From positions 89,104-153,103 of IMG/VR virus record IMGVR_UViG_3300028666_000023: a DNA stretch of 64,000 nucleotides, one strand, 5' to 3'. A program made the translations under genes and the position numbers. The number at the start of each line of letters is the position of its first letter. The stretch's first letter is position 1. Under the pieces are notes generated by a model. That model was not told the origin of the DNA and did not search any database. It worked only from the letters and a program-made list of their open reading frames with translations. This document shows positions 1 through 58,341 of this stretch, one piece after another. Source of the DNA: a virus.

Positions 1-139
1 CTGCGGTGGCCTCGTTCGCGGTGTGGATGGCACCGACGACCTTGCCTTTCAGCGAGAGGTGCAGCTTCACACCGGGCATTCCCGTTTCTTCTTTGACCTG
101 GTTGAACTCGCGGGCTTCCCCGACCAGTTGGATCTTCAT
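1..139 (-). CDS. Partial unknown protein (cut by left edge)
   Basis: Only the first 46 codons are inside the window. The N-terminus reads MKIQLVGEAREFNQVKEETG and continues open to base 1. Its ATG overlaps the stop of the upstream gene as ATGA, which fixes the start and suggests translational coupling. I do not recognise the family. Confidence 0.65.
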   Translation of the reverse strand, partial: MKIQLVGEAREFNQVKEETGMPGVKLHLSLKGKVVGAIHTANEATA

Positions 140-342
140 ACGCGTGTCACTTTCTGGAGCTTGTACTTCCTGATGGAGATGTCGGTGGAGCGGTAGGCCG
201 GGCGCTTGTCGTCCCGAAGCTCGATGGCGGTGGCGCGCGCTTGCGCAGCACTGTTGATGCCGACGCACGTGACCCATTTCTGTCGGCGCACGTCGAAGTA
301 GGAGACCTCGTAGAGGAACGGAGACGGACGTTTCTTCTTCAT
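136..342 (-). CDS. Unknown 68-aa basic protein
   Basis: Starts at MKKKRPSPFLYEV and overlaps the upstream gene by ATGA at 339-342 and the downstream gene at 136-139. A longer frame reaches position 504, but the overlap start is better supported. Strongly basic, with the pattern YEVSYFDVRRQKWVTCVGI followed by an A-rich helix. No recognised domain. Confidence 0.65.
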   Translation of the reverse strand: MKKKRPSPFLYEVSYFDVRRQKWVTCVGINSAAQARATAIELRDDKRPAYRSTDISIRKYKLQKVTRV

Positions 343-614
343 GCAGCGATGACCTTTCGTTTGATGAGCGTGATGGTCGCGTACTTCTTCCCCACCATCC
401 GCTCCAACGCTTTGAGGCATTCGTCGCAGAGCGACATGCTCCCACGACGCCCGTCCTTGCCGGGCTTGTTCTCCTTGACGATGACCGTCGGGATGTTCTT
501 GCAACGCTCCGGCGCTAGGCGCGGACCGAGTGTCATGAAACTACCCGCGCGTTTCATCGCCTGGCACCGCTTCAGATCTGGCGGCGTCAGTGGCTTGAGT
601 TTCTTCTTTGCCAT
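339..614 (-). CDS. Unknown 91-aa protein with a CxxC pair
   Basis: Lys-rich start (MAKKKLKPLTPPDLKRC), with Cys at about 17 and 38 and a CDEC pair at 63-66, giving four cysteines able to bind one zinc. It is preceded by GGAG about 9 bases before ATG. It overlaps the 3' end of the upstream gene by 74 nt in another frame, an unusually long overlap. Family not recognised. Confidence 0.65.
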   Translation of the reverse strand: MAKKKLKPLTPPDLKRCQAMKRAGSFMTLGPRLAPERCKNIPTVIVKENKPGKDGRRGSMSLCDECLKALERMVGKKYATITLIKRKVIAA

Positions 615-1050
615 GTATCCACACTCCGTAGATGCATCGACCCACGCCGCCTGTGACTTTCACCTTGCCCATCTTCTCGAGGAAGAGGATCGCGTCCGCG
701 TGGGTGCTGAGGCCGTGACCGTTGACGTCTTGGCCTTCGCGCAAACCATCGGCGTGCTGTCGCACCATGTCCATCAAGCACTCGATGGCTTCGTCGCGCT
801 GCTTGCGCACGAGGCTGCGGCAGCGGCCTTTCCCGTGCGCAGCGGTAGTACTGCCACCCGCTTCCAGATACGCGTTCTTCTCCCAGAACACGAAGCGACT
901 CGGGTGCACTTTGTCACCGAGCTTGTCCGCGCGACGGTCGGTGATCTCCGTGTTGCAATGCGGGCAACGTGACAGCAGCGCGCCCTCAACTTCCTCGAGT
1001 GCGATGCGCTCTTCGATCTCCTCAGCCGACGGATTGATTTCCTTGGGCAT
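541..1050 (-). CDS. Unknown 169-aa protein with CxxC
   Basis: Chosen start MPKEINPSAEEIEERI lies directly behind an ATAAG box and a GAGGGA ribosome site. Acidic N-terminal helix, then CPHC at 29-32, a Cys/Arg-rich middle (KGRCRSLVRKQRDEAIEC) and a charged tail. The last 25 residues are encoded in the overlap with the next gene. No known domain. Possibly a zinc-ribbon protein. Confidence 0.65.
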   Translation of the reverse strand: MPKEINPSAEEIEERIALEEVEGALLSRCPHCNTEITDRRADKLGDKVHPSRFVFWEKNAYLEAGGSTTAAHGKGRCRSLVRKQRDEAIECLMDMVRQHADGLREGQDVNGHGLSTHADAILFLEKMGKVKVTGGVGRCIYGVWIHGKEETQATDAARSEAVPGDETRG

Positions 1051-1052
1051 GT

Positions 1053-1076
1053 GTTCCCTCGCTCCCTTATTCCTCG
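1053..1076 (-). promoter_or_regulatory. ATAAG box plus ribosome site
   Basis: On the minus strand GAGGAATAAGG is followed by GAGGGA and then the ATG at 1050. It lies in the 28-nt gap after the stop of the zinc-finger gene at 1079. It is one member of the recurrent element seen across the window, and the promoter role is inferred. Confidence 0.5.
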
Positions 1077-1078
1077 GG

Positions 1079-1309
1079 TCAGAGGCGATTGAAGAAACTG
1101 TCCCAGTCGTCGCGTTCGCGCTCGACATCGGCCTGCGTTCCTCCACCGCGACAGGCGTCGCACGCGTTGAAGGTGCCATCTGGGTCGTACCCAGATCCAT
1201 GGCAGTGCGTACAGTGCTCGAGGATTTCGTCCTCGGTGGCTAGAAGAGAGGCGCGCTCGTCTTCAGTAATCTCCGAAGCCACTGGTCTTGATGGTGAGGT
1301 CGATGCCAT
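1079..1309 (-). CDS. DnaJ-like zinc-finger mini-protein 1 of tandem array
   Basis: A 76-aa protein with CTHCHGSG and CDACRGGG, two CxxCxGxG half-knuckles as found in the DnaJ cysteine-rich domain, enough to bind one zinc. It lacks a J domain and is far too short to be a co-chaperone. The Glu-rich stretch before the cysteines (ATEDEILEHC) aligns with its neighbours. It overlaps the upstream paralogue by 47 nt. The exact role is unknown; protein or RNA binding is the usual inference for such knuckles. Confidence 0.7.
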   Translation of the reverse strand: MASTSPSRPVASEITEDERASLLATEDEILEHCTHCHGSGYDPDGTFNACDACRGGGTQADVERERDDWDSFFNRL

Positions 1310-1496
1310 GAAGGTCTGGTTGCTCCACTCTGATGTAGCCCTCGCCTTTGCACTTGCGGCAGGGATCGGCGCTGCCGTCTCCGTACGAGAACCCAACGCC
1401 CTGCCCTTGGCACTGCGGACAGGTGACGAGGTCGTACTTCGGGCCCATGATCTTTTGCTCGGTCTCCCGCAGCGTGCACTTCTCGTCCTCTGTCAC
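1263..1496 (-). CDS. DnaJ-like zinc-finger mini-protein 2
   Basis: 77 aa with CPQCQGQG and CRKCKGEG spaced by about 20 residues, preceded by the family motif LRETEQKIMG. ATGA-type junction with the upstream paralogue at 1493-1496. No other domain. Clearly related to the adjacent genes by the E-x-x-E-x-x-[IV]-[ML]-G lead-in. Confidence 0.75.
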   Translation of the reverse strand: MTEDEKCTLRETEQKIMGPKYDLVTCPQCQGQGVGFSYGDGSADPCRKCKGEGYIRVEQPDLHGIDLTIKTSGFGDY

Positions 1497-1708
1497 TTGA
1501 AGTGCCTGTACCGCTGAATGTTTGGTCCACCGGCGCTGATGCGGCTAGTGACGGTGCCCTTCATATTGAAGCCGGCCTTCCACCACCACGTGTAGCCGCG
1601 ATGCTCGCAGACGGCGCAGCCAGCCTTGAGGCACCACTCGCAGTCGCGCTTCTCGTAGCCGAGGACGGTCATCTCGACGACCTCGAGCGCCTTCTGTTCT
1701 TCATCCAT
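1493..1708 (-). CDS. DnaJ-like zinc-finger mini-protein 3 (degenerate)
   Basis: 71 aa starting MDEEQKALEVVEMTVLGY. Cysteines are CEWC then CAVC with a much shorter spacing, and the Gly positions of CxxCxGxG are partly lost (CEHRGY). This is a divergent copy of the tandem family. The start is fixed by a short overlap with the next gene upstream (1701-1708). Confidence 0.7.
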   Translation of the reverse strand: MDEEQKALEVVEMTVLGYEKRDCEWCLKAGCAVCEHRGYTWWWKAGFNMKGTVTSRISAGGPNIQRYRHFK

Positions 1709-1955
1709 CGAGTTCCTCCCAATCTGGATCGACTCCGGTTCCGATGAAGTATTTGACACCGAGCTTGTCCCTCCAGAAGTAGCCGTGCCCATTACAACCG
1801 ATGCAGGCGACCCACGTCTTCACGGCGCGAGGGCTCTCGAAGAAGTAACGAGACGTTCCGTTGCAGTCGTAGCATTGGAAGCGGGTGTAGCCGAGAATTG
1901 TGAGTTCGGTCTCCTGCAGCTTCTGGCGATCGTTGCACGCTTCAATCTTCGTCAT
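1701..1955 (-). CDS. DnaJ-like zinc-finger mini-protein 4
   Basis: 84 aa with the lead-in LQETELTILGY, then CYDCNGTS and CIGCNGHGYFW. Both Cys pairs are intact and the second retains the Gly pattern. Overlaps its upstream neighbour by 14 nt. Same family as the genes on either side. Confidence 0.75.
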   Translation of the reverse strand: MTKIEACNDRQKLQETELTILGYTRFQCYDCNGTSRYFFESPRAVKTWVACIGCNGHGYFWRDKLGVKYFIGTGVDPDWEELDG

Positions 1956-2262
1956 CGATGTACGCCTCGCTTTCCCATCCCTGCGGGTCGACCCAGATCT
2001 TGCCCGAGCCGTCGCAGAGAGCGCATGGCCGATCTTCCATCACGCTGTTGTAGGTCCCGCCGCTGCCCTCGCAATCACCGCACTTGCCGACGTACCAGCC
2101 CATGACAAGACGCTCGGTCTCGATGAGGCGGCGTTCTTCTGCGAGCAGCTGGAGGAGCACGGTGATCTTGTAGAGCGCACTGTCCGCACAACGAAGACGC
2201 TCCTTCGCCAGCAGCCGACGACTCTCGTGCAGTTCTCGTAGCCGCTGGGTATCAGTCACCAC
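1942..2262 (-). CDS. DnaJ-like zinc-finger mini-protein 5 (long form)
   Basis: 106 aa from a GTG start. An N-terminal extension of about 50 residues (a probable Arg/Leu-rich helix) precedes the family lead-in LIETERLVMGW and two complete knuckles, CGDCEGSG and CALCDGSG. It overlaps the small membrane ORF upstream by 11 nt, which supports the GTG. Confidence 0.72.
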   Translation of the reverse strand: MVTDTQRLRELHESRRLLAKERLRCADSALYKITVLLQLLAEERRLIETERLVMGWYVGKCGDCEGSGGTYNSVMEDRPCALCDGSGKIWVDPQGWESEAYIDDED

Positions 2263-2350
2263 GCCACCACCGCCAACGAAAGAGGTAGTAGTACTTCACG
2301 GTGGCCACCGTGACGATGGGAACGATCACCCATAGGTAGTTGTGATTCAT
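2252..2350 (-). CDS. Small single-pass membrane protein (32 aa)
   Basis: Reads MNHNYLWVIVPIVTVATVKY then a Tyr/Trp/Arg-rich tail. One hydrophobic span (residues 6-18) and positively charged C-terminus. Support comes from GGGGAGG 8 bases upstream of ATG and an 11-nt overlap with the next gene. Function unknown; it sits inside the zinc-finger array. Confidence 0.6.
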   Translation of the reverse strand: MNHNYLWVIVPIVTVATVKYYYLFRWRWWRGD

Positions 2351-2370
2351 CGGTCGAACCTCCCCTCGTG

Positions 2371-2604
2371 TCACCGCCGCCACCGCTGCCACCGCTGCTG
2401 GGCCGGCGTGAGCCAAGTCCACCCGCGCCCCTCACACCCCTTGCATTTGCGCGCAGGTGATTTGTGCTGCGGCTTCTTAGGTTGTGAGAGTCGACGCACA
2501 CCCTTGCCCTCGCAGTCGGCGCACGGGTTCTTCACCCAGCCCATCACGAGGAGCTCGACTTCCTTGAGCTCGTTGGTCTCCTTGATTCGTTGTTTGCGAC
2601 TCAT
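2371..2604 (-). CDS. DnaJ-like zinc-finger mini-protein 6
   Basis: 77 aa, MSRKQRIKETNELKEVELLV then MGW and CADCEGKG, a basic Lys/Pro spacer, CKGCEGRGW and an Arg/Trp tail. Overlaps the upstream paralogue by ATGA. Strong family member with both knuckles intact. Confidence 0.75.
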   Translation of the reverse strand: MSRKQRIKETNELKEVELLVMGWVKNPCADCEGKGVRRLSQPKKPQHKSPARKCKGCEGRGWTWLTPAQQRWQRWRR

Positions 2605-2801
2605 TTGGTGAGCATCCTCCTCACGTGCCGCGTGACTGGTTTCATCATGATGTCGCCGTTCTGATTGAGCCACACGAGTCCACGTCCCTGACACTCGTCG
2701 CAACGGCGACGGCGGGTGAGCGGACACCGGCAAGGCACGACCCGCCAGCCCAGGGTCATCAACTCCACGGCCTCGAGGCAGCGCTGCTCGGCCTTGTTCA
2801 T
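2601..2801 (-). CDS. DnaJ-like zinc-finger mini-protein 7
   Basis: 66 aa. Lead-in LEAVELMTLGW, then an atypical first pair (CRC) and a full second knuckle CDECQGRGLVWLN. The tail is basic. It is the first-transcribed copy of the array. ATGA junction upstream at 2798-2801. Confidence 0.73.
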   Translation of the reverse strand: MNKAEQRCLEAVELMTLGWRVVPCRCPLTRRRRCDECQGRGLVWLNQNGDIMMKPVTRHVRRMLTK

Positions 2802-2986
2802 TGAGGCGTCTTGGAGAGATGGAAGCCGTGGCAGCTATCGCATGGGTAGTAGTACAACGTGACGCCGTCTCGCGCTTTGGCATTCCGAACGGCCACGAGC
2901 GCGTCACTACGCATGTCGAAGCGCTTCTTCTCTGGGAAGCGCTCGCACTCCTCGATCGGCTTCGGCCTATGCGCCTTGACGGTCAT
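2798..2986 (-). CDS. Unknown 62-aa protein with CDSC
   Basis: Starts MTVKAHRPKPIEECERF, with the ATG overlapping the upstream stop. Contains YYYPCDSCHGFHLS near the C-terminus, a pattern common in small phage proteins that resemble a treble-clef half (Cys-x2-Cys-x-Gly-Phe-His). Function unknown. Confidence 0.65.
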   Translation of the reverse strand: MTVKAHRPKPIEECERFPEKKRFDMRSDALVAVRNAKARDGVTLYYYPCDSCHGFHLSKTPQ

Positions 2987-3156
2987 GGCCGATTCACTCG
3001 ATAGCGAGCACCCGTCTCGTTCCACACGACGAAGACGGCTTCGTCGGTGCGCTTCGTATTGAAGATCTCCTGGATGGAAGTCCGCCTGGCGGGGCCGCAG
3101 TCGCGGGTTGAACCATTCGACGAAACGGCGATGAAGTTGTACATGTCTTTCTCCAT
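2983..3156 (-). CDS. Unknown 57-aa protein
   Basis: MEKDMYNFIAVSSNGSTRDC start, ending RYRVNRP. ATGA overlap with the next gene and an AGGAGGG ribosome site immediately upstream, behind an ATAAG box, so it leads the transcription unit containing the zinc-finger array. No recognised domain. Confidence 0.65.
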   Translation of the reverse strand: MEKDMYNFIAVSSNGSTRDCGPARRTSIQEIFNTKRTDEAVFVVWNETGARYRVNRP

Positions 3157-3160
3157 TGTA

Positions 3161-3184
3161 TTCCCTCCTGATTACTTATGCCTC
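3161..3184 (-). promoter_or_regulatory. ATAAG box variant plus ribosome site
   Basis: Minus strand GAGGCATAAGT then CAGGAGGGA before the ATG at 3156. The box overlaps the stop codon of the upstream gene at 3176. It differs from the consensus GGRATAAG by a C at the third position. Confidence 0.45.
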
Positions 3185-3367
3185 GTTCGGTTGGAAACCT
3201 GAGAGGTCCCTCAACGCTTCTTGCAGCTCTGTCACTGAGGCGCGCAGCTCAGAGATGTCGCCCTGCATCAGCTCCATGCACCCCGACTTCTTGTGCTTCA
3301 CGAAGTAGCCGTTCTCGTCCTCCTTGATCCAATGCCCGCAACGCTTACAGTTGTGCCCTCGCATCAC
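3176..3367 (-). CDS. Unknown 63-aa protein, zinc knuckle plus coiled coil
   Basis: MMRGHNCKRCGHWIKEDENG start (the second Met is equally possible), with CKRC at 7-10 and one more Cys near 30. The C-terminal half, SELRASVTELQEALRDL, is a predicted coiled coil. Function unknown. Confidence 0.65.
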   Translation of the reverse strand: MMRGHNCKRCGHWIKEDENGYFVKHKKSGCMELMQGDISELRASVTELQEALRDLSGFQPNEA

Positions 3368-3659
3368 GCCTCCGTTGGCTCAAGTACTTCTTCTCGGATC
3401 GCGTGAGGATCCGATGCTGTTCGAGATACGGCCTGTAGATCTCGCTCGAAGCAAGCGGCTCGTGGAGCTCGTAGTAGTTGCTGCCCTCGAGCAGCTGACG
3501 CACGCATTTGACGGCCTCGCGCGTCTCGGCGGTCTCCCTCAGCGCCCACTGCATCCACGCGCGCAGGCGTGCTCTGCGTGTGTAAGAGAACGGGCGTTCG
3601 CTGCCGCACCACGCACTCATCACGCGTGGCATGCGTCGGCGTCCTCGAAAGAAGCTCAC
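3345..3659 (-). CDS. Unknown 104-aa basic helical protein
   Basis: GTG start overlapping the upstream TGA as GTGA. N-terminus is Arg-rich (MSFFRGRRRMPRVMSAW), followed by helical segments ending RSEKKYLSQRRRDARAQL. Overlaps the next gene by 23 nt. No recognised family. Confidence 0.55.
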   Translation of the reverse strand: MSFFRGRRRMPRVMSAWCGSERPFSYTRRARLRAWMQWALRETAETREAVKCVRQLLEGSNYYELHEPLASSEIYRPYLEQHRILTRSEKKYLSQRRRDARAQL

Positions 3660-3925
3660 GCGAACCTCGTCTTTCTCCCGTACGTCATCCCCCTCCTGAA
3701 GTCGTAGCTCCGTTTGCGCTCGCAGCTGTCGTGGTGCGCGAGCGCGCCTTGGTACATGTGCGGCATGAGGCGCGCCTTGTCCCGGATGTCCTCGGGGAAC
3801 CACCAGTCGGGACAAGTACATGTCGGGCCGTTGTTTCCCATCACCTCGTTCTCGATGAGCTTGAGGTCGTCTTCGTGCTGCTCCATGGCCGCACGAGTAG
3901 CGCCGTCATTTGGCAGTTTGATCAT
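3656..3925 (-). CDS. Unknown 89-aa protein, possible outlier of the zinc-finger family
   Basis: MIKLPNDGATRAAMEQHEDD then LKLIENEVMGNNGPTCTC. The lead-in LIENEVMG matches the E-x-x-E-x-x-[IV]-[ML]-G motif of the tandem array 1 kb away, but the knuckles are reduced to CTC. Basic C-terminus (YDFRRGMTYGRKTRFA). Confidence 0.65.
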   Translation of the reverse strand: MIKLPNDGATRAAMEQHEDDLKLIENEVMGNNGPTCTCPDWWFPEDIRDKARLMPHMYQGALAHHDSCERKRSYDFRRGMTYGRKTRFA

Positions 3926-4172
3926 GGGGAACCTTTCTGAGCCAGCTCACAGCCAGCTGCTCTTTGCGCGTTCCGATCTTGCGTTGGAAGCGCGGTGCGT
4001 TGGGGCCGAGGTCGGTGCAGATGAGTGCGCAGAGGCGCACCTCGCGATCGCACCAAGTCGACACCCAGAGCTTCTCGATCTTCCACCGCGTGCTCGTCTC
4101 GGTGTTGAAGATGACGATCTCGCCGACACGAAAGCCGTCGAGCTCTTCTCGGTACTCGCGCATCAGCCCCAC
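3906..4172 (-). CDS. Unknown 88-aa protein
   Basis: MGLMREYREELDGFRVGEIV start, with a Met three residues in as an alternative. FRVGEIVIFN followed by alternating beta residues resembles a small SH3/KOW-type barrel, but this is only an impression. Overlaps its neighbours by 10-20 nt. Confidence 0.6.
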   Translation of the reverse strand: MGLMREYREELDGFRVGEIVIFNTETSTRWKIEKLWVSTWCDREVRLCALICTDLGPNAPRFQRKIGTRKEQLAVSWLRKVPHDQTAK

Positions 4173-4423
4173 CTGATGAGCGCGAGATCGTAGGCCGTCT
4201 TCCAGAGCGTCTTGTTGGAAGAGATCATCGTGCTGCCAATGAGGAAGGCCATCGTTGTATCAAGTGGCGTGGCGATGGTGCCGTCAGCGTTCTGTTTGGC
4301 CGCGCGCCGGCGCTTGAGATCTTCATCGGTGGTGAGGTGCCTAAACTCCTCGCAGAAGCGAGCGCGCCTCACCACACGTGCGAAGGCCGCAAGTGCGATG
4401 GAGCGCTTCTCGTCGTAGTCCAT
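4163..4423 (-). CDS. Unknown 86-aa helical protein
   Basis: MDYDEKRSIALAAFARVVRR start at a TGATG junction with the upstream gene. Predicted mostly helical and basic. The C-terminus ends LWKTAYDLALIRWG. No recognised domain. Confidence 0.65.
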   Translation of the reverse strand: MDYDEKRSIALAAFARVVRRARFCEEFRHLTTDEDLKRRRAAKQNADGTIATPLDTTMAFLIGSTMISSNKTLWKTAYDLALIRWG

Positions 4424-4692
4424 CAGTTGTCCTCGGGGTCGAAGACGAAGACCGCGGTCTTGGGAATGCCCTCTCTGCATTGCGCCGAGCTCGGACCGCC
4501 GGCGTCGAACCAGCAGTCGAAGCAGAGCTTCACCGGCCAGTCCTCGGTGTCGGCGAGAATGACGGGGTCGCCACAGTGGCCGCACGACCCCGCCTGCCCC
4601 CAGTGCTTCGCTCGCCACTCGTCGATGTCGTAGCTGCCCGTATTGCCGCGGCAGTACACGCAGTCGGCCGCTTGGCAGTCGCAGTTGCTCAT
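4423..4692 (-). CDS. Unknown 89-aa Cys-rich protein
   Basis: Begins MSNCDCQAADCVYCRGN, with further CGHC and CFDC pairs, giving at least two potential zinc sites. Acidic tail (VFDPEDN). The start is set by ATGA with the upstream gene. Confidence 0.68.
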   Translation of the reverse strand: MSNCDCQAADCVYCRGNTGSYDIDEWRAKHWGQAGSCGHCGDPVILADTEDWPVKLCFDCWFDAGGPSSAQCREGIPKTAVFVFDPEDN

Positions 4693-4997
4693 CGCTTCTT
4701 TCGTAGCACCGCGCGCAGCTCCTTCGCACAATCGTGCGCGGCCTTGCGCGTGCTGAAGTAGGCGAGGTCAGCGATGTAGCCTGTTTGCTTGGCGTCGTGC
4801 TCGGCCACCACGGAGTACGGGAGCTCCTCGCCAGGGTCGTCGTGGTCGACGGTGATCTTGCCCACGACAATGCGCTTCACCGGTTTGGGCGCGGGCTTCT
4901 TGCGCGGTGGGCGCAGCGCGTAGCCCATGTGCGCCGTGCAGTACTTGCTGTGGCGACCAGAGTCCTTCTGTTTCGGTGTGCAGGTGCAAACGCTCAT
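4689..4997 (-). CDS. Unknown 102-aa protein
   Basis: MSVCTCTPKQKDSGRHSKYC N-terminus with three clustered Cys and a His, then a Lys/Pro linker and a globular C-terminal half with YSVVAEHDAKQTGYIADLAY and a basic helix. Preceded by AGGAGAAC close to ATG. Confidence 0.68.
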   Translation of the reverse strand: MSVCTCTPKQKDSGRHSKYCTAHMGYALRPPRKKPAPKPVKRIVVGKITVDHDDPGEELPYSVVAEHDAKQTGYIADLAYFSTRKAAHDCAKELRAVLRKKR

Positions 4998-5006
4998 GTT
5001 GTTCTC

Positions 5007-5459
5007 CTAGGTCCGCATGACGATGACGCGATCGCGGATGAGCGCGCGGTACTCCTCGAGTTCCTTCCACGCGCAGTCGTTACAGATGGCGTCGCTCTTC
5101 TTCTCCGGTGGGTCGCCCTCCCACGACAAGAGTGTATGACAGCGCTGGCAGCACGGCGATTCTTCCCACTCCTCCATGTCGAGCGCGTCATCGACGTACT
5201 GCGGATGGCCGTAGGCCCAATCGAGCCCGAGGTTGAGGCCCTCCATGCCCGATGCTTCGGCGGCCTTGAGAGCCTTGTCGATGGCGCGATCGACGCTGAC
5301 GGAGTCGTACTCCACGACGCCGCTCGCCATGGTCTTTGCGCTCTTACCGACGAGCGTGCAGCACCACCAGACGACTCCCCTGCCCATGTCGTGCTTGCGA
5401 ATGAGCACGCGAATCTTCTTGGGATCGACGCGCAGTCGAACGTGCTTGGGAGCGAGCAT
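5007..5459 (-). CDS. Unknown 150-aa protein with C-terminal zinc ribbon
   Basis: N-terminal 100 residues are globular with no recognised fold (MLAPKHVRLRVDPKKIRVLI start). The C-terminus has CCQRCHTLLSWEG then CNDCAWKEL, a two-CxxC zinc ribbon. It abuts the upstream gene without a gap. Confidence 0.68.
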   Translation of the reverse strand: MLAPKHVRLRVDPKKIRVLIRKHDMGRGVVWWCCTLVGKSAKTMASGVVEYDSVSVDRAIDKALKAAEASGMEGLNLGLDWAYGHPQYVDDALDMEEWEESPCCQRCHTLLSWEGDPPEKKSDAICNDCAWKELEEYRALIRDRVIVMRT

Positions 5460-5687
5460 CTACTTCGCGTCTTCGGCGACGAGCTTCAACTCGATGATGT
5501 CCAAGATCTTGACCGGAGCGCCGTTGCACGTCGCCTCTTTCTTGATGAGCGCGGGCACGCGCTTCATCGCCTGGAACGCCGTGAAGGCGATGACGTTGTA
5601 CGAGGTCTCGAAAGTCGAGAGCTTCGACGCCCGCATCCAATGCTGGGTGTAGCGGCACTTCACGGTGATGCGGTAGACGTTCTTCAT
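5460..5687 (-). CDS. Unknown 75-aa protein
   Basis: MKNVYRITVKCRYTQHWMRA start behind CGGAGG and an ATAAG box. Predicted alpha/beta mini-fold with ITVKCRYTQHW and a terminal ILDIIELKLVAEDAK strand-helix. First gene of a transcription unit that follows a terminator. No family recognised. Confidence 0.68.
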   Translation of the reverse strand: MKNVYRITVKCRYTQHWMRASKLSTFETSYNVIAFTAFQAMKRVPALIKKEATCNGAPVKILDIIELKLVAEDAK

Positions 5688-5692
5688 GTAGT

Positions 5693-5717
5693 ACTTCCTC
5701 CGAATTCCTTATTCCCT
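5693..5717 (-). promoter_or_regulatory. ATAAG box plus ribosome site after a terminator
   Basis: Minus strand GGGAATAAGGAATTCGGAGG about 10 bases before the ATG at 5687, directly downstream of the terminator at 5725-5749. The terminator-box-GGAGG-ATG order is one of the clearest in the window. Confidence 0.55.
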
Positions 5718-5724
5718 GAACAGC

Positions 5725-5749
5725 TAAAAAGAGAGGAACCCCTCTCTTT
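5725..5749 (-). terminator. Intrinsic terminator
   Basis: Minus strand AAAGAGAGG-GGTT-CCTCTCTTT followed by TTAGC. It starts immediately after the stop codon of the 211-aa gene at 5749. Confidence 0.8.
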
Positions 5750-6384
5750 CAGCGTCGCCACTTCTTGTACGAGGTGCCGCCTTTGGGCTGGCGCTTACAG
5801 CGCTCCCAGATAGTGGCGCGCTTTCCCATGAACTCCCGCAGCTTCCTCGCGATGCTGAGCGTGCGCGCGGAGGCGTGCTGTGCCCAACGGCCACGTGGAA
5901 GTGGCTTGTAACTCTTGGGTTCAGACGTACCAGAAGGCAGCCACGACTCGGTCTCCGTCACGTAGTACCGCATGCCCGACGTGGAGATTTCCTGTTTGCA
6001 CTTCGAGCATGACTTCTGGCCGTTCAGCTTCTCGGCGCGGCGGATGACCGCCTCACGCCACTCGGCCTCGGTTCGGTTGCCCGGGCAATCGCGAACCGTT
6101 CGTTCGTCGATCTGCCACTGCATCTCCTTGGTTGCCCTCCGCTCCCGCAGCTCACGCATGATGAAGAGCTTCTGGGTGAGGAGGTCGTGGTAGATGTCCA
6201 CGGCGCTCGATACCTGAAGCTCGGTGAGGTCGCCGCGCTTGTGCATCTCTTCGAGGCGGGCGCGCAACGTCGGCTTGTCCCCGCGCAGCCTCTCGAGCAT
6301 CGCTTCCTCCTTGGCGATGAGCTCGTCGAGCTTCTCGTCGGGGATGGCGGGGACAATGCCGCTCGGTTCCTTAGTAGTGCCCAT
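5749..6384 (-). CDS. Unknown 211-aa helical protein with CxxC
   Basis: MGTTKEPSGIVPAIPDEKLD start, then a long charged helical region (DELIAKEEAMLERLRGD) and a lone CSKC pair around residue 130. Basic C-terminus. Preceded by GGAGGC and an ATAAG box and ended by a terminator, so it is probably monocistronic. Function unknown. Confidence 0.7.
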   Translation of the reverse strand: MGTTKEPSGIVPAIPDEKLDELIAKEEAMLERLRGDKPTLRARLEEMHKRGDLTELQVSSAVDIYHDLLTQKLFIMRELRERRATKEMQWQIDERTVRDCPGNRTEAEWREAVIRRAEKLNGQKSCSKCKQEISTSGMRYYVTETESWLPSGTSEPKSYKPLPRGRWAQHASARTLSIARKLREFMGKRATIWERCKRQPKGGTSYKKWRR

Positions 6385-6390
6385 GTTGTA

Positions 6391-6416
6391 GTGCCTCCAT
6401 TGTTCTTATTCCGCGG
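6391..6416 (-). promoter_or_regulatory. ATAAG box plus ribosome site
   Basis: Minus strand CGGAATAAGAACAATGGAGGC before ATG at 6384. It overlaps the 3' end region of the upstream membrane protein gene (stop at 6421). Confidence 0.52.
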
Positions 6417-6420
6417 GAGG

Positions 6421-6753
6421 CTACTTGCATCGGCAGACGATGTACGGCGCCATCGCGATGTTCTTGGCGTCCCCCACCGCATCCATCTTCTGCCCAGGCT
6501 CGCATCTGTGGACCGTCGGCGCGTTGTCGCCACCGTACACCCACTCGAACTTGTCTTGGCACGTCGATGCCGGCGCAGGGGGCGGATGCTGTTGTCGTTG
6601 CGTGCGCTGCTCGCTCAGGTGCTCGAGGAAGGCGACAAGTAGTCCAAGCGTCAGTCCCATGACAGCGCCTACCGCCCACATGATTCGACCGTGCCGGAGG
6701 TCTCGCGCGGTTGTGTCGATGATGGGCTTCTCGTTCTCACGATATGGTTTCAT
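6421..6753 (-). CDS. Single-pass membrane protein (110 aa)
   Basis: MKPYRENEKPIIDTTARDLR then a TM segment IMWAVGAVMGLTLGLLVAF (about 24-42). The C-terminal domain of about 65 residues has three cysteines and would be periplasmic if N-in. The N-terminal PYREN..EKP motif recurs in the 124-aa protein at 15384. Role unknown. Confidence 0.7.
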   Translation of the reverse strand: MKPYRENEKPIIDTTARDLRHGRIMWAVGAVMGLTLGLLVAFLEHLSEQRTQRQQHPPPAPASTCQDKFEWVYGGDNAPTVHRCEPGQKMDAVGDAKNIAMAPYIVCRCK

Positions 6754-6762
6754 GTTGTTCTC

Positions 6763-6948
6763 CTAGTTGAGTGATGCTGTGAGGGCCGCGCGTGCTTCAC
6801 GCAGTGCCTTCTGCCAGCGGCGGTCGTGCTTCTTACACTCGCCCGTGAGCTCCGCCGGTGGCACACAGACTGCGCAGTGCGCGGCGGTGATGCCGTCGAG
6901 AGTATCGAGGACCTGCTTCAAGGCCTCACGTGTGCTGAGGGTCTTCAC
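6763..6948 (-). CDS. Unknown 61-aa protein with CAVC
   Basis: GTG start overlapping the upstream TGA as GTGA. MKTLSTREALKQVLDTLDGI, CAVC at 25-28 and another Cys near 38, then a basic helix. No family recognised. Confidence 0.6.
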   Translation of the reverse strand: MKTLSTREALKQVLDTLDGITAAHCAVCVPPAELTGECKKHDRRWQKALREARAALTASLN

Positions 6949-7115
6949 GTCGATTGCTCCTCGGGTTCGTTGAGTCGGCGCCACTCGCGACCGGCTTCCT
7001 GCAAGAGGGCAGCGAGGTTGGCGCGGAGCTCAGGGAGATCGCGCTCGCAGCCCTTCACGAGCGTGTCGAGCTGGCGGTGCGAGATGCGGATGTCGGTGGC
7101 ATCACCTACGAACAT
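6945..7115 (-). CDS. Unknown 56-aa helical protein
   Basis: Reads MFVGDATDIRISHRQLDTLV, then an amphipathic helix to EEQST. It is 12 nt from a GGAGG. A closer ATG (7122) opens only a six-codon frame in another phase, so the real start may be regulated by that mini-ORF. Confidence 0.55.
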   Translation of the reverse strand: MFVGDATDIRISHRQLDTLVKGCERDLPELRANLAALLQEAGREWRRLNEPEEQST

Positions 7116-7126
7116 GTTCCATGGAT

Positions 7127-7150
7127 GCCTCCTACTGTTCTTATTCCTTG
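7127..7150 (-). promoter_or_regulatory. ATAAG box plus ribosome site
   Basis: Minus strand AAGGAATAAGAACAGTAGGAGGC. The box overlaps the stop of the 139-aa gene at 7141, so the unit restarts right at the gene boundary. Confidence 0.52.
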
Positions 7151-7560
7151 GTGTTGCGCTCCGTCTTTCCTACGCCGCCAGGCTCCTTCCCGGACGCGTC
7201 GGAGGGGCGGGCGGCCGCGAAGTATTGCGTGGTGAGCGCCACGATTTGACGTCCCGTTTCGACGCACGCGGGGCAAGCCGGGTGATTCGATATTAGCTCG
7301 GCATTGCAGTGCTCCACTTGAGCGCCCATGCGATGCACCTCATCGATGATGGCCTCCGCCCGCTCCGCTCTTGCCCGCCACGCCTCGGCGGATGCGAGGG
7401 CTTTCAGATCGGCGAGGAACGGGTCAGCCTCGAAGTCCGCGACGCCTTTGCCGCCAGTTTCGTGACGGCCCACGATGTAGATCATCGGCTTGCCGTGGAC
7501 TCGCGCCATCTCGATCGCTAGTTCCAAGTTTGGAATCAACTCGTCAATACCGGGCTTCAT
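7141..7560 (-). CDS. Unknown 139-aa protein with CPAC
   Basis: Starts MKPGIDELIPNLELAIEMAR. Contains PMIYIVGRHETGGKG, a helical middle and HPACPACVETGRQIVAL near 105. Possibly a small alpha/beta protein with one zinc half-site. Unknown role. Confidence 0.65.
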   Translation of the reverse strand: MKPGIDELIPNLELAIEMARVHGKPMIYIVGRHETGGKGVADFEADPFLADLKALASAEAWRARAERAEAIIDEVHRMGAQVEHCNAELISNHPACPACVETGRQIVALTTQYFAAARPSDASGKEPGGVGKTERNTKE

Positions 7561-7565
7561 CTCCT

Positions 7566-7889
7566 TCACTTGCCTTGCTCCTTCCCCGCGTCGGGCGCGT
7601 CCCGATCGCACGACCCGAGATCGTTCAGTGCGCACTCTGGGCATCGCGGCTCCGCCCCGGGCGCGTCTTGCGCGAGGGCGGTGCGAGCAATCTTGTGCGC
7701 GCCGGGTCCGGTGTCACCGTTCGCTATGCGCTCCAGCGCCGCCCGGAATCGCTCCGCGCGTGCCAGCTGCGCCCGCAGCGCGTCCCGGCATCGCGCGTCC
7801 GTGTGCGTGCACCCTGACGCGAACTTTTCCCAAAGTCGGCCATCGTCGTTCTCCAGCTCCGTCCCGCACCCGTGCTCGCAGAGTGTCAT
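7566..7889 (-). CDS. Unknown 107-aa Cys-rich protein
   Basis: Starts MTLCEHGCGTELENDDGRLW, an N-terminal CxxxC knuckle, followed by an Arg/Ala-rich helix and a second cluster CPECALNDLGSC. Four or more Cys could bind one zinc across the helical linker. Confidence 0.65.
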   Translation of the reverse strand: MTLCEHGCGTELENDDGRLWEKFASGCTHTDARCRDALRAQLARAERFRAALERIANGDTGPGAHKIARTALAQDAPGAEPRCPECALNDLGSCDRDAPDAGKEQGK

Positions 7890-7891
7890 GG

Positions 7892-8038
7892 TCACTCCTT
7901 CGGTTTGGTTGTCTTCGCGGGCCAGCTCGCTGCTCGCTTGCACACCGGGCAGTACTTCGGCGGAGTCGAGCCCATCAGCGGTCGGCCGCATTCTGGGCAG
8001 TGTGTGTATCCCATCTGCGTGTACTCGGTGCTCGTCAT
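7892..8038 (-). CDS. 48-aa zinc ribbon protein
   Basis: MTSTEYTQMGYTHCPECGRP then CPVCKRAAS. A complete minimal zinc ribbon (CPEC, about 15 residues, CPVC). Start overlaps the upstream stop by 4 nt. Function unknown. Confidence 0.68.
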   Translation of the reverse strand: MTSTEYTQMGYTHCPECGRPLMGSTPPKYCPVCKRAASWPAKTTKPKE

Positions 8039-8703
8039 AGTATTTCCTCGACGGGATACGCGCCTCGACCCACCCGCTTCAACTGCTCGCGGATACTCTT
8101 CAGCGCGATGGCCTTGTTCTTCAAGAGGGATTCTTCCACATCCGAAAATGCTCGAACGTCCGCATGTCCGAGGTGCGTGATTCGGACCCAGCAATAGTTG
8201 CCCAAGCCGCTGGTGCCCGCGAAGACGCCCGTCCCTCCCCCGATGCCGGTCTCCACCCGGATGTCCTCCTCCTCGATCTCCGGCCACTCCGGAAGCGGCT
8301 CGTCCCACTTCCGGCCGCAGTACAGACACACCTCCCAGCGAGGACCCTCTGGAGGTCCCTGCCCTAAGCGGATGTAGCTCATGTGCCCGTCGGTACGGCC
8401 GTTGGGGGTCACGCAGGGGGCGTCGTAGAACTTGCCCATGTAGAGCTGGGTGGCCCCGCAGCTGTAGCAGCGCGGGAACTTCCCGGGCTCGCGATCGATG
8501 CGGTCTTCGCACTTGCAGTGCACGCACTTCCCCGAGTGGTCCAGCGCAGCGACGTAGTGCTGAGGGGAGGGCCCGCTGTCTACGTGGGTGGGGTACCCGT
8601 GGGGCAGATGGAGCTCGTGGCCCGCGCTGGGCACGGGGAACTGCGAGGGCAGCGGGAGCTTGAGGGGACTAACGGGTCTTCGGCGCGGCTTTTTGGAGGG
8701 CAT
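8035..8703 (-). CDS. Unknown 222-aa multi-zinc-site protein
   Basis: Start MPSKKPRRRPVSPLKLPLPS is taken from the frame and position; earlier in-frame ATGs fall in the upstream gene. Three Cys pairs (CVHCKCED, CYSCGAT, CLYCGRKWDE) and a Gly-rich VETGIGGGTGVFAG segment. C-terminal helix. No known family. Confidence 0.65.
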   Translation of the reverse strand: MPSKKPRRRPVSPLKLPLPSQFPVPSAGHELHLPHGYPTHVDSGPSPQHYVAALDHSGKCVHCKCEDRIDREPGKFPRCYSCGATQLYMGKFYDAPCVTPNGRTDGHMSYIRLGQGPPEGPRWEVCLYCGRKWDEPLPEWPEIEEEDIRVETGIGGGTGVFAGTSGLGNYCWVRITHLGHADVRAFSDVEESLLKNKAIALKSIREQLKRVGRGAYPVEEIL

Positions 8704-9142
8704 CTTTGATCTCCTGAAGGTGGATGCATTCACGGCATGTCGGTGCGCGCACCTCGGCGTACGCATGCCGGATGCTCTTGCCGCAGAAGGCCTCGTACTC
8801 GTTCTTCTGTCGATGCCAGAAGTGATCGAGGCCAAGGCTGACGTTGAAGACCGGCGTGGTGGAGGGAACCGGCGATTCGGTTTGCGGCATCGTGCTCGGG
8901 AAGTCGCCCTCCACGAGTACGGTCACCTTCACCGGGAAGATCTCGTACTTCTTGGGAGAGACACTGCTGCCGAAGTACAACTTCGCGATGCTGAGCGCTT
9001 CTTCTCTGCTGCGAAGAAGCGAGCCCTTGCTGATGCGTTGTGCCGACAGATGCGATGGGCCCCAACTGCCGCCCATCTCGGTGATGAAGCCGCTGTCCAC
9101 GCGCAGAAGAAACCGCTCCTGGCTCCAGCTCTCTTTGCTCAT
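8669..9142 (-). CDS. Unknown 157-aa protein
   Basis: MSKESWSQERFLLRVDSGFI start. Contains a beta-rich middle (KKYEIFPVKVTVLVEGDFPS) and HAYAEVRAPTCRECIHLQEI near the end with CREC. Overlaps the next gene by 35 nt. Confidence 0.67.
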   Translation of the reverse strand: MSKESWSQERFLLRVDSGFITEMGGSWGPSHLSAQRISKGSLLRSREEALSIAKLYFGSSVSPKKYEIFPVKVTVLVEGDFPSTMPQTESPVPSTTPVFNVSLGLDHFWHRQKNEYEAFCGKSIRHAYAEVRAPTCRECIHLQEIKDALQKAAPKTR

Positions 9143-9379
9143 TTAGTACTCCCGCGGCTCTTCTGGCGTGTACAAGAAGCTGCTGCCCCACGGGATGGAG
9201 GGGTACGCCTGTTTGAAGAGCAGCTGCTTCATGAGGCGCTCGGCCGACTCCTTGCCCTCACGACGCTTGGAGTCCACCTCTTGGACGGCGTCCCAGTGGT
9301 CCTTGCAGAGAGGAATCTGGTCCACGGAGCCGTAGTACTTGCGCGAACACGCGATGCAGGCTTCGTCGTGGATGCTCAT
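9143..9379 (-). CDS. Unknown 78-aa protein with zinc knuckle
   Basis: MSIHDEACIACSRKYYGSVD, with CIAC, then LCKDHWDAV. The C-x2-C ... C-x2-H pattern suggests a treble clef. ATGA junction upstream. Confidence 0.68.
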   Translation of the reverse strand: MSIHDEACIACSRKYYGSVDQIPLCKDHWDAVQEVDSKRREGKESAERLMKQLLFKQAYPSIPWGSSFLYTPEEPREY

Positions 9380-9618
9380 CGGTGGATCAACCAGCTGGGC
9401 GCGGTGCCGCGCGCGTCGATGATGCGAGGTGCGATGCCGAAGACGCGGTGGCACCACTCCACGCCCTTGCCGGCCTGCATCTCGAGCTGCGCGACGGCGT
9501 CCGCCTCTTCACCGAGGAAGGGCAGACCCGCGAGTGGGATGGTCTCGTCGAGCTCGAACAAGATGGTGTCGGCGAGATCTGTTTTGCGAACCGTGACGCT
9601 CAAAACGTGGATGTTCAT
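9376..9618 (-). CDS. Unknown 80-aa protein
   Basis: MNIHVLSVTVRKTDLADTIL start, beta-rich first half and a Trp/Cys-containing core (GVEWCHRVFGIAPRII). Coupled by 4-nt overlaps to both neighbours. No family recognised. Confidence 0.67.
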   Translation of the reverse strand: MNIHVLSVTVRKTDLADTILFELDETIPLAGLPFLGEEADAVAQLEMQAGKGVEWCHRVFGIAPRIIDARGTAPSWLIHR

Positions 9619-10001
9619 GTGACCTCCGGTGGATACCGCGTGCCCCCCGTCTTCTCAGGGTCGCACTCGGCGCATGTACACGTGTTCTTGGGCACGAGCC
9701 CATGGTTGATGCCGCGCGGGTTGTTGCACGGGCACCCATCGGCGATGCGATAGTTCTTGGGCATGATGAAGCGGTCGCAGCCTCGGCAACGCTTCAAGTC
9801 CTTGAGGTGACCCTCGAGGAAGTCCGCCCACTCCTGCGCGTGGTGATTCTGCGCGTAGACGGTGCGCATCTCTTTGATGGCCTCATCTGCGCGGTGAAGG
9901 TGCTCGGCGAGTTGTTCTCCCACCGAGCCAGGACACGGCATGTGGTCTCGGTGGTCATCAGGCGTGCGGAAGTTCTCCCCGCACGTGCATGTGTCGTTCA
10001 T
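9615..10001 (-). CDS. Unknown 128-aa Cys-rich protein
   Basis: MNDTCTCGENFRTPDDHRDH at the N-terminus, a helical middle, then CRGC, CPCNN and CTCAEC clusters. At least nine cysteines. Probably a multi-zinc protein. The start overlaps the upstream stop. Confidence 0.67.
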   Translation of the reverse strand: MNDTCTCGENFRTPDDHRDHMPCPGSVGEQLAEHLHRADEAIKEMRTVYAQNHHAQEWADFLEGHLKDLKRCRGCDRFIMPKNYRIADGCPCNNPRGINHGLVPKNTCTCAECDPEKTGGTRYPPEVT

Positions 10002-10759
10002 GTCTTTTTCCTCAGGAGGTTGCGAAGCCCGTCACGTAGCGGCAGGTAATCGCGATCGTCGAGGTACGCCGAAGCTTCACCGATGCATGCCTCGACGGCC
10101 TCGTCCCATTCCTTGTCTTTGATTTCCTTCGTCTGAATGCGCTCGCCCGTGCAGCCGTTACAAGCGCACACGCAGCTGTCGTCGTTGGTGCAACCGAACG
10201 ACCAAACTTCGCAGTGCGCCACCGGGGCAGCGCCCTCGATCGCCTTGATGGTCTCTTCACCGAGTGGCTTGCGCTCCGGGCAGCCCTTGAAGTGACGGCG
10301 AGGGTCCTTGGCCTGGATGTGCGGACATGTGCAGGTGCTCGACTTGAAGGCTTCGATCTTGGCGAGCGCCGCTTTGGCCGCATCATCGGGATGCTGCGGC
10401 GCGGTCTGGCCGCAGGAGATTTCGGTGAGCGCCACTTCCGCTACACCGATGGTGCGCCCATCGATGAAGGCTTGTACTTCCTTGCCCTGCTCGAAGGCAT
10501 TGCCCTCAATCTCACCGAGCGTCTTGCCGGGGCTCTTGCCCGTGCCGTTGCAGAGCGTGCAGGGCTCGTCGGTGTACTCCTTGGGCGGGAGCTTCTCGTT
10601 GAGGCGCGCGTAGACCTCGGGCGCCGCATCCTTGAGGGCCTCGAGCTTGTCGAAGGCCTCCACGAGTGGCCAGTTGCCCGAAGTGCCTGACCACCCACCC
10701 TGCTCGTACACGAGCCGAGCTGCGGGGATGAGCGCGTCGATGATGTTCTTGTCGTTCAT
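9998..10759 (-). CDS. Unknown 253-aa protein with DnaJ-like knuckle
   Basis: ATG at 10759 follows AGGAG by 5 bases. Helical N-terminus (MNDKNIIDALIPAARLVYEQ), CTLCNGTGKSPG around 67-78 (one CxxCxGxG unit), then CTCPH and a cluster CVCACNGC. The single knuckle links it loosely to the mini-protein array at 1-3 kb. Confidence 0.68.
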   Translation of the reverse strand: MNDKNIIDALIPAARLVYEQGGWSGTSGNWPLVEAFDKLEALKDAAPEVYARLNEKLPPKEYTDEPCTLCNGTGKSPGKTLGEIEGNAFEQGKEVQAFIDGRTIGVAEVALTEISCGQTAPQHPDDAAKAALAKIEAFKSSTCTCPHIQAKDPRRHFKGCPERKPLGEETIKAIEGAAPVAHCEVWSFGCTNDDSCVCACNGCTGERIQTKEIKDKEWDEAVEACIGEASAYLDDRDYLPLRDGLRNLLRKKT

Positions 10760-10761
10760 GT

Positions 10762-11029
10762 TCAACTCCTGATGGTCTCGGTGAGCGTCGGAAGGACGGG
10801 GCGCTCGCGCGTCCCGTAGATCATGCGCAGCTTCACCTGCGTGCCGAAGGGATGCGCTTTAGAGGGGAGCATGAGGCCGGCGAGGATGACCTTCACCAGG
10901 TACGAGTCCCCGTACTTGTCCCTCAGTCGCCTGACTTCAGTCGCGAAGCCGACGATCTCCTTTGCTTGCTTGCTTGCGCATCGTTCGCAGAGAGACCGGG
11001 CTCTTTTTCTTTTTCGTCTTCATGCTCAT
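10762..11029 (-). pseudogene. Zinc-knuckle gene split by a frameshift
   Basis: ATG at 11029 (ATGA overlap with upstream gene) opens MSMKTKKKK and would stop after 30 codons at 10937. The +1 frame, entered in the AAAAAG-AAAAAG run, reads RARSLCERCASKQAKEIVGF and continues to a stop at 10762 that abuts the next gene. The joined product would be about 88 aa with CERC. This is either programmed +1 (or -2) slippage or a one-base indel in the A-run, natural or from sequencing. Confidence 0.55.
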
Positions 11030-11355
11030 CTCCGTTTGGGCCTGAGGTTGTAGCCATGCTTCTCGGCGAGCGACTTGAGCATCGCAACCTCGGTGTCGCG
11101 GTACCCGAGATGCAAGCCGCTGATGGGCGTGCCCATGTTGCCTCCAATGAGGACGGGCACGAGTTGATCTGCGTGGTGCGTCTCGATGACGTGCGCCGCA
11201 TTCACGTGGTTGAGCGCGGGCACTTCGATCATCGTCTTCGTGCCGAGCAGCATGGGCTGCGCGCATGCCTTTGCGAGGTTCTCGCCGAACGCGGGGTCTC
11301 TCATGATGGCCGAGAGCGCGTCGTTGAGAACTACTACCGTTGTGTTGTACCCCAT
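11026..11355 (-). CDS. Unknown 109-aa protein
   Basis: MGYNTTVVVLNDALSAIMRD start, alpha/beta character (QLVPVLIGGNMGTPISGLHL). Basic C-terminus KPKRR-like. ATGA junction with the downstream frameshifted gene. Function not recognised. Confidence 0.67.
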   Translation of the reverse strand: MGYNTTVVVLNDALSAIMRDPAFGENLAKACAQPMLLGTKTMIEVPALNHVNAAHVIETHHADQLVPVLIGGNMGTPISGLHLGYRDTEVAMLKSLAEKHGYNLRPKRR

Positions 11356-11835
11356 CTATTTCTTGTCCTTGTCACCGAGGAGCTTGTCGAGATCTTCTTG
11401 TGCACGCTCTTGACCGCGCTCGTGTGCGAGGTCGAGCAGCGCACCCTTGTACGCATCCTCGTAGCGCGCGTTCACCGCCTTCTTGAGCGCCTCAGGCAGC
11501 TTCTTGTCGAGGTTCTTCTCCTCCGCTTTGAGGTAGCGCTCCATGAGGACCTGCGCGCGCTTCTGAGCGGTCGCCTCGACCAGCTTGGCGATCGGCGAGT
11601 TCCACTTCACCTCCACGCGACTGAAGGCTTCGTCGATGCCCACCGCACGATCGATCGCGGAGTTCAGGAGTCGCTCGAGGCGACTGTGGACATACGAATG
11701 GATGCGGTGGTCGTCGCCGAGGTGCGCTGCAACCCATTCATGCGCCGCGGCGAGCAGAGCTCGACGGACACGCGCGGGTAGAACTTCTTCGTCCGGCTTG
11801 GCCGGCTTCTCTTTCTTTTCTTCGAACAGTCCCAT
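11356..11835 (-). CDS. Unknown 159-aa charged helical protein
   Basis: MGLFEEKKEKPAKPDEEVLP start, then almost entirely helical and Lys/Glu/Ala-rich, ending LDKLLGDKDKK. Low cysteine. Could be a scaffold-like or coiled-coil protein. No family recognised. Confidence 0.67.
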   Translation of the reverse strand: MGLFEEKKEKPAKPDEEVLPARVRRALLAAAHEWVAAHLGDDHRIHSYVHSRLERLLNSAIDRAVGIDEAFSRVEVKWNSPIAKLVEATAQKRAQVLMERYLKAEEKNLDKKLPEALKKAVNARYEDAYKGALLDLAHERGQERAQEDLDKLLGDKDKK

Positions 11836-11842
11836 GTGGACC

Positions 11843-12226
11843 TCACGGAATCGTAGGTTTCTGTTTGTGCTTCTTCGCACGCGGCGCTTCTGGAAGCGCG
11901 CGGTTCAACGTGTCTTGGTAGCGGCGGTTACGACGCGCCTGCTCTTGTAGTCGGTCCACGTCGAGGTAGACCTCGGGCGTGGTGGAGAGCGATCGCATGC
12001 GTCCCTCTTTGGGCTTCCAGTCCGGCGTGACCTTCAGCACGGGTAGATCGCTCTTGGGTGCGCGCGTCTCGAAGAACTCGGGGTGCATGAGCTCAACGAC
12101 GATGCGATGGCAGCACGTGCCCACCCAGATCTTGAGGCCATCGGGCAAGGTGAGACGAAAGACGGCAGCGCGCTTGATGCCACACGCCCAGCATGTGCTG
12201 TCGTCCTTCTCGTCCTTAGTCGGCAT
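11843..12226 (-). CDS. Unknown 127-aa protein with CWAC
   Basis: Starts MPTKDEKDDSTCWACGIKRA, then beta strands (VFRLTLPDGLKIWVG) and TCCHRIVVELM, giving a plausible zinc ribbon. The tail is basic (ARRNRRYQDTLNRALPE). Confidence 0.67.
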   Translation of the reverse strand: MPTKDEKDDSTCWACGIKRAAVFRLTLPDGLKIWVGTCCHRIVVELMHPEFFETRAPKSDLPVLKVTPDWKPKEGRMRSLSTTPEVYLDVDRLQEQARRNRRYQDTLNRALPEAPRAKKHKQKPTIP

Positions 12227-12677
12227 CGAACTTCTCTGGGGGGATCTCTGCCCAATCGCAGCCGCACGTGTAGCACTGGTAGTGCATGTGCACGCAGTCG
12301 AGATCTCCGTTTGCGGTGCATTGCGAGTCGGACTGGCGGAAGTGGGCGGAGTCCAAATCCAAGGTGTGCGGGCCGACGTGACGCCCTCGGAAACGGATGT
12401 CGTGATCACTGTGGCAACGAGGGCATTCATCCTGCGGGTTGTAGAGCCAACCCTTTTCTTCTTCGGGTTCTACCGTCGCCGGTGCTCCGGGCGAGCTGCC
12501 CGAGCGATACGGATGACCAGAGACGGGCTCCTCGGTGTCCGCATCCTCCTCTTCGAACTCTTCTTGGGCTGCTTTGCGCCCGTCCCTGAAGCCGAGCCAT
12601 CGAGAGAGTATGACGCCGGGCAGAGCGGCTACAATTCCCGCCGCCAGCTCCATCAGCTCGAACTCGAAGTTGATCAT
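12216..12677 (-). CDS. Unknown 153-aa protein, hydrophobic N-terminus and zinc ribbon
   Basis: Starts MINFEFELMELAAGIVAALP. Residues 10-24 are hydrophobic and could form a short membrane anchor. An acidic linker leads to CPRCHSDHDIRF and a second CYTCGCDW. Role unknown. Confidence 0.65.
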   Translation of the reverse strand: MINFEFELMELAAGIVAALPGVILSRWLGFRDGRKAAQEEFEEEDADTEEPVSGHPYRSGSSPGAPATVEPEEEKGWLYNPQDECPRCHSDHDIRFRGRHVGPHTLDLDSAHFRQSDSQCTANGDLDCVHMHYQCYTCGCDWAEIPPEKFDAD

Positions 12678-13045
12678 GCGTCTCTCCGATGTGCCGTTCG
12701 CAGGAAGCGGATGAACCTGTTCTTGTCGTCGAACTCGGCACTGATGAAGCCCGCCTTGTTGGTCTCGGGGTCGAGGCCCACGAGCCCATTGAGAAGACCG
12801 AGCAGACCGAGCTCGCTCCAATCGGTGCCGCGCGGCGCCGAGTCTTCAACGTAGACGGTCTGGATGCGCTCGTGCTTCGCCGTTGCCACCGAACACTTGA
12901 TGCGCTCTTCGATCAACTTGCCGATGTCCTCTTTGATGTCGATGTGCTCGTTGCAGAGCATGTTGAGCCGCGCGATGAGCTCGTCGGCCAACTCCTCATC
13001 TTGCACGGCGGGCACGGTTCGGCGCACTCGGTTGTTCTTTCCCAT
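12674..13045 (-). CDS. Unknown 123-aa protein
   Basis: Starts MGKNNRVRRTVPAVQDEELA, helical (ADELIARLNMLCNEHIDIKE), with a Leu/Gly-rich segment and a basic end. It lies in a 50-nt overlap with its upstream neighbour. Confidence 0.63.
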   Translation of the reverse strand: MGKNNRVRRTVPAVQDEELADELIARLNMLCNEHIDIKEDIGKLIEERIKCSVATAKHERIQTVYVEDSAPRGTDWSELGLLGLLNGLVGLDPETNKAGFISAEFDDKNRFIRFLRTAHRRDA

Positions 13046-13445: not shown

Positions 13446-13452
13446 GTATTAC

Positions 13453-13474
13453 TTCCTCCAGATTCCTTATTCCT
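13453..13474 (-). promoter_or_regulatory. ATAAG box plus ribosome site after a terminator
   Basis: Minus strand GAGGAATAAGGAATCTGGAGG, 8 bases before ATG at 13445. The terminator at 13491-13518 ends in TTTTAGCTACC just upstream. Confidence 0.55.
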
Positions 13475-13490
13475 CGCTCGAGTGGGTAGC

Positions 13491-13518: not shown

Positions 13519-13519
13519 C

Positions 13520-58294: not shown

Positions 58295-58341
58295 ACTAGA
58301 GGCCAAAAGTAGCCTCCGCAAAGGCAAATTTAGGGCCCTTG

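Follow-up and report, generated by a model that had tools for sequence, protein, structure and literature searches.

The array and its setting

The DNA analyzed here, called the window, is a stretch of 64,000 nucleotides (G000:C1:89104-153103) of an IMG/VR virus record of 193,844 bp. The record was surveyed as stretches, with the final 844 bases covered by the genome search only; it encodes a DnaB-type helicase and a family A DNA polymerase, which are replication genes of a phage. A comparison of the first 25 kb of the window with 50,697 phage records revealed no close nucleotide match, and a search of the window for tRNA genes gave none. A preliminary description had reported seven consecutive, mostly overlapping genes at positions 1079-2801, with a 32-aa membrane ORF among them. 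All seven are present as intact ORFs of 66-106 codons on the minus strand and are numbered g1 to g7 in the order of transcription.

2601..2801, minus strand: g1, 66 aa; lead-in LEAVELMTLGW; Cys pairs C-R-C and C-D-E-C-QGRG
2371..2604, minus strand: g2, 77 aa; two CxxCxGxG knuckles
2252..2350, minus strand: 32-aa ORF inside the array, between g2 and g3; hydrophobic, putative membrane protein
1942..2262, minus strand: g3, 106 aa; GTG start, N-terminal extension, two knuckles, acidic tail
1701..1955, minus strand: g4, 84 aa; paralog
1493..1708, minus strand: g5, 71 aa; short loop between the Cys pairs (CEWCLKAGCAVC); basic tail
1263..1496, minus strand: g6, 77 aa; GTG start; two full CxxCxGxG knuckles
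1079..1309, minus strand: g7, about 76 aa; most diverged paralog; ORF open from 1396, start codon uncertain
541..1050, minus strand: gene next downstream of the array; N-terminus with one CxxC
4423-4731, 3176-3367 and 9615-10001, minus strand: examples of other small Cys-rich ORFs of the region

The reported overlaps between successive genes were confirmed and amount to 4, 14, 8, 4 and 47 nt. The hydrophobic 32-aa ORF was also found where it had been placed; it is separated from g2 by a gap of 20 nt, overlaps g3 by 11 nt and is preceded by the purine-rich, ribosome-site-like sequence GAGGGGAGG. The GC3 of six array genes (0.71-0.83) is close to that of long trusted genes (0.82-0.90), so the array genes look coding; g7, with 0.62, is the weakest by this measure.

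The minus strand of window positions 1-14000 forms an accessory region with many small Cys-rich ORFs that have no assigned function. Cysteine accounts for 3.1% of the residues in the small ORFs of this region versus 1.6-2.4% elsewhere, and no other part of the phage matches the one around the array in the Cys content of its small ORFs. None of ten small proteins tested from window positions 1-14000 had a Pfam match above cut-off, known defence models gave no match, and scans for promoters and terminators returned nothing beyond expectation.

Relationship among the seven genes

As judged from their sequences, the seven genes are true paralogs. A profile of the seven members matched the array alone in the 193.8-kb record with E values from 5e-28 to 6e-16 (g1 scored 1.4e-19 against the family model), and the next-best match, at 69.9 kb, had an E value of 0.11. 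Eight ORFs with a CxxCxGxG motif were observed, versus a mean of 0.11 and a maximum of 1 in 200 rounds of residue-shuffled phage ORFs. The proposal of repeated duplication with divergence had been tied to mutual similarity outside the Cys motifs, and such similarity is present both in masked alignments and in models of the lead-in alone. Cys-masked pairwise alignments gave Z-scores of about 5-8 for g1-g5, g2-g3, g2-g4, g4-g5 and g6-g7, while g6-g3 and g6-g4 reached about 4. Leave-one-out HMMs of the full proteins placed six of the seven members at rank 1 of 334 targets and g7 at rank 2. Using the lead-in only, which contains no Cys motif, six of the seven again ranked first of 334 (E 1e-5 to 2e-3); g7 did not reach rank 1 on the lead-in and is joined to the family via g6. 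The masked alignments and lead-in-only models thus rule out chance or Cys-only similarity, and together with the family profiles they support duplication with divergence. Recent duplication or an assembly artefact as the sole cause is likewise ruled out, since the proteins are only about 30% identical (mean column identity about 31%) and the residual direct DNA repeats are short (64-85%), lying mostly over the lead-in and the first knuckle.

Two further relatives had been suggested within the window. ORF 3656, thought to keep only the lead-in, scored E 0.07-0.75, about decoy level, which leaves its membership unsupported. The ORF at 9998 does carry the single knuckle ascribed to it, yet it ranked only 37th (E 6.5) and thus lacks a family score; its membership is unsupported as well. 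The N-terminus of the gene at 541-1050 is similar to g7 at a borderline level (Z about 5; rank 9, E 0.09); this gene is a possible remote relative, outside the member count. Elsewhere in the record, a protein encoded on the minus strand at G000:C1:69422-70135 (L005) contains one CxxCxGxG and one CxxC pair. It was the top decoy for the array profile, with E values of about 1e-4 to 1e-3 in most runs, and is possibly a distant relative of the array outside it.

Metal site, predicted fold and known relatives

The lead-in follows the consensus L-x-x-[TV]-E-x-x-[ITV]-[LM]-G-[WYP], in which L and E are invariant; G-[WYP] occurs in six members and is missing from g7. The motif as first written, E-x-x-E-x-x-[IV]-[ML]-G-[WYP], needs correction, as its first E is not conserved and only the second is invariant. 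The count of one or two CxxCxGxG units is corrected too: every member has two Cys pairs, with a CxC in g1. All four cysteines are conserved in 7/7 members, whereas the loops between the pairs and the C-terminal tails are strongly divergent. This conservation at about 31% mean column identity indicates that the metal site was kept by selection, and speaks for continued folding of every copy around a metal, probably zinc as in the homologs; one zinc site is predicted per member. The net charges of the tails from g1 to g7 are +4, +4, -6, -3, +6, -2 and -3, a spread pointing to divergent partner surfaces.

An AlphaFold2 model of g2, computed from an eight-sequence alignment (mean pLDDT 83.8), consists of a helix at residues 3-20, the knuckle strands and a second helix at 67-76. 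The AlphaFold model of g6 is of low confidence (pLDDT 65) and shows a helix at 3-16 and strands, with no C-terminal helix. According to these models the N-terminal helix is predicted to pack beside a four-Cys zinc beta-knuckle. Foldseek matched DnaJA2, anti-TRAP, BSD2 and lambda Q in the PDB, all with E > 0.05, and also many single small phage proteins. These matches are dominated by the knuckle, which is found as well in chaperones, an antiterminator, UvrA and polymerase inserts; a fold common to so many types of protein does not settle the function. In HMO-2011-type phages two CxxCxGxG motifs lie within the DNA polymerase (PMC9038755), so the knuckle unit is also found inserted as a module into other phage proteins.

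The likeness to the DnaJ Cys-rich domain consists of the CxxCxGxG units and the zinc beta-hairpin. PF00684 (DnaJ_CXXCXGXG) was the most widely shared Pfam match, found in 5/7 members (best 2.5e-5) but below cut-off in all, and a profile search of solved structures matched the DnaJ Cys-rich domain with E 6e-5. DnaJ, however, has four CxxCxGxG repeats and two zinc ions, whereas the array members have two Cys pairs, and they lack both the J domain and the substrate-binding domains of DnaJ. In agreement with the preliminary description, no member contains HPD and no J-domain match appeared up to E 10.

Anti-TRAP (RtpA) of Bacillus is likewise a tiny protein with one zinc site formed by two CxxC pairs. 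It comprises a short N-terminal helix, the zinc motif and a trimer-forming C-terminal helix, and acts as a protein inhibitor in trimeric or dodecameric form (PMC11255114). The order helix-knuckle-helix is also seen in the g2 model, whereas the g6 model lacks the C-terminal helix. NF058604 RtpA matched 4/7 members (best E 2.1e-6), the profile of PDB 3lcz gave E 6e-4, and the Foldseek match to 3ld0 had a probability of 0.92 with a non-significant E value; the best member against PF15777 was g6 with E 3e-4 and 21.2 bits, under the cut-off of 32. Anti-TRAP differs in its length of 53 aa, in a shorter lead-in without L-x-x-[TV]-E..G-[WY], and in being described as a single gene. No TRAP gene was found in the one record searched for this phage. 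On the tests made, the array proteins are neither DnaJ nor anti-TRAP.

With the lambda Q antiterminator the members share a two-knuckle zinc unit of about 40-60 aligned residues (PDB 7ubj profile, 50-60 residues, E 0.0036; phrog_127 'antitermination Q-like' versus g2, 3.5e-4). Lambda Q is a 207-aa factor that binds DNA and RNA polymerase, and the array members (66-106 aa) lack the remainder of it. Two phage families without assigned function each match some members only: phrog_12902 matches g3 (E 4.5e-6), including part of the lead-in, and phrog_9961 matches g6 (1.7e-5).

Single relatives occur in the Straboviridae (T4-like) as proteins of 64-68 aa with a G-W before the first knuckle and two CxxCxGxG units. 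These proteins, of which the one at the CPTMiller_00175 site of Citrobacter phage Miller is an example, are single copy, with 183 places in 183 records. Using hhalign, the Straboviridae proteins matched the array family with a probability of 96.4% and E 1.2e-9. The Miller protein itself scored E 7.5e-9 against the array HMM, with no score over its upstream helix sequence. On sequence grounds, namely size, G-W and knuckles, the array is a member of these phage two-knuckle mini-proteins of about 65-80 aa; outside the knuckle the case for common ancestry with the Straboviridae type is weak. A protein of viral contig L069 matched the array HMM with E 5e-12, and this contig was the only convincing one of three matched by the DNA pattern of lead-in plus knuckle.

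Searches of viral and genome contigs with single proteins and with three proteins gave no close relatives, and three queries against an annotated phage set gave no record with more than one place. By the family model, the array is absent from 29 related records, which were reached via a structural gene or the DNA polymerase and may be fragments; five of them contained knuckle-level matches only. One of these matches, at 850-1776 on the minus strand of L064 (G019), is by eye a ThyX-like protein (flavin thymidylate synthase) with two CxxCxG-type knuckles near its N-terminus. Synteny was uninformative, because the flanking genes are not kept. We found no account of such an array in the literature, subscription papers being mostly outside the search. 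The kind of protein is already known; what is new is the seven-fold expansion, which, as far as these searches reach, looks confined to this lineage.

Possible role of the array and further features of the record

Our preferred reading, held tentatively and at slightly less than an even chance, is that the array encodes single-zinc protein-binding adaptors with an anti-TRAP-like action, diversified by tandem duplication. One phage accessory gene, coding for a single-zinc, two-knuckle mini-protein comparable in kind to half of a DnaJ Cys-rich domain, would have been tandemly expanded in this lineage. The zinc knuckle would serve as a rigid scaffold, and each copy may bind a different partner through the knuckle surface, the loop and the tail. 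The partner would most likely be a protein of the host or of the phage with a part in regulation or assembly, and it would be blocked or bridged in the way anti-TRAP keeps TRAP off RNA. Duplication and the divergence of tail charge (from +6 to -6) could thereby produce a panel of binders, possibly homo- or hetero-oligomers. The same analogy lends plausibility to the earlier suggestion that the products may act as a multimer or target host proteins. A bolder version, which we consider unlikely, is that of a binder library built by copying one zinc scaffold seven times, with a separate regulatory protein of host or phage as the new target of each copy; if true, a locus of 1.7 kb would give coordinated multi-target takeover or counter-defence.

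The same proteins could instead be holdases or assembly chaperones, with knuckles that bind phage proteins in the unfolded state or during assembly and need neither J domain nor Hsp70 step. The DnaJ zinc region and plant BSD2, which carries a two-zinc DnaJ-type domain, would be the models, DnaJA2 and BSD2 are the best Foldseek matches, and PF00684 is the Pfam model shared most widely. We regard this as rather improbable: one zinc site is predicted where two would be expected, the substrate-binding beta domains are absent, and a generalist would not need seven diverged copies. Marginally less credit still goes to transcription or nucleic-acid regulators, with RNA polymerase or nucleic acid as the ligand of their knuckles. 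Lambda Q has a similar two-knuckle unit, phrog_127 matches g2, and the phage encodes its own large fused beta-beta' RNA polymerase. The alignment is, however, limited to the knuckle and its near surroundings, several members are acidic, and relatives that bear the polymerase lack the array, which is therefore not a core part of the polymerase machine.

Overlapping genes suggest coupled translation, the tail charges are complementary and anti-TRAP forms trimers and dodecamers, all of which would suit seven subunits of one hetero-oligomer, a ring or shell acting as a single complex. Intramolecular packing explains the conservation of the lead-in equally well, and we think such a complex improbable. 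Least probable is the chance retention of drifting duplicates that have little function or none. The absence of the array among the 29 records and the weak coding signal of g7 would fit drift, but seven frames have stayed open, each with its four cysteines in spite of the low overall identity, and six genes have a coding-like GC3.

Small zinc-knuckle proteins are scattered in phages as single genes with no assigned function. The array separates constrained parts, the lead-in helix and the metal site, from free parts, the loop and the tails, and offers one locus for measuring how scaffold targets diversify. Should every copy have a partner of its own, it would be a compact natural case of a small phage scaffold turned into several binders.

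The fused beta-beta' RNA polymerase mentioned above comprises 2162 aa and is encoded outside the window on the minus strand (G000:C1:7051-13536, L002). Its domains are Rpb2_6 of beta (E 1.5e-59), followed by Rpb1_2 and Rpb1_5 of beta-prime. It is kept in 16/17 related phage records tested, in 13 of them at full length with 53-66% identity. The only fused phage polymerases described in PMC7481178 are those of the crAssphage type, which are highly divergent, and this clade therefore merits separate attention. Tandem duplication seems to be common in this phage: three similar tandem ORFs of about 263-277 aa lie at G000:C1:82563-85043 (L006, minus strand), and at about 50,400-58,300 (L004, minus strand) there is a series of long proteins of 567-722 aa, probably structural, whose N-termini follow a similar pattern.
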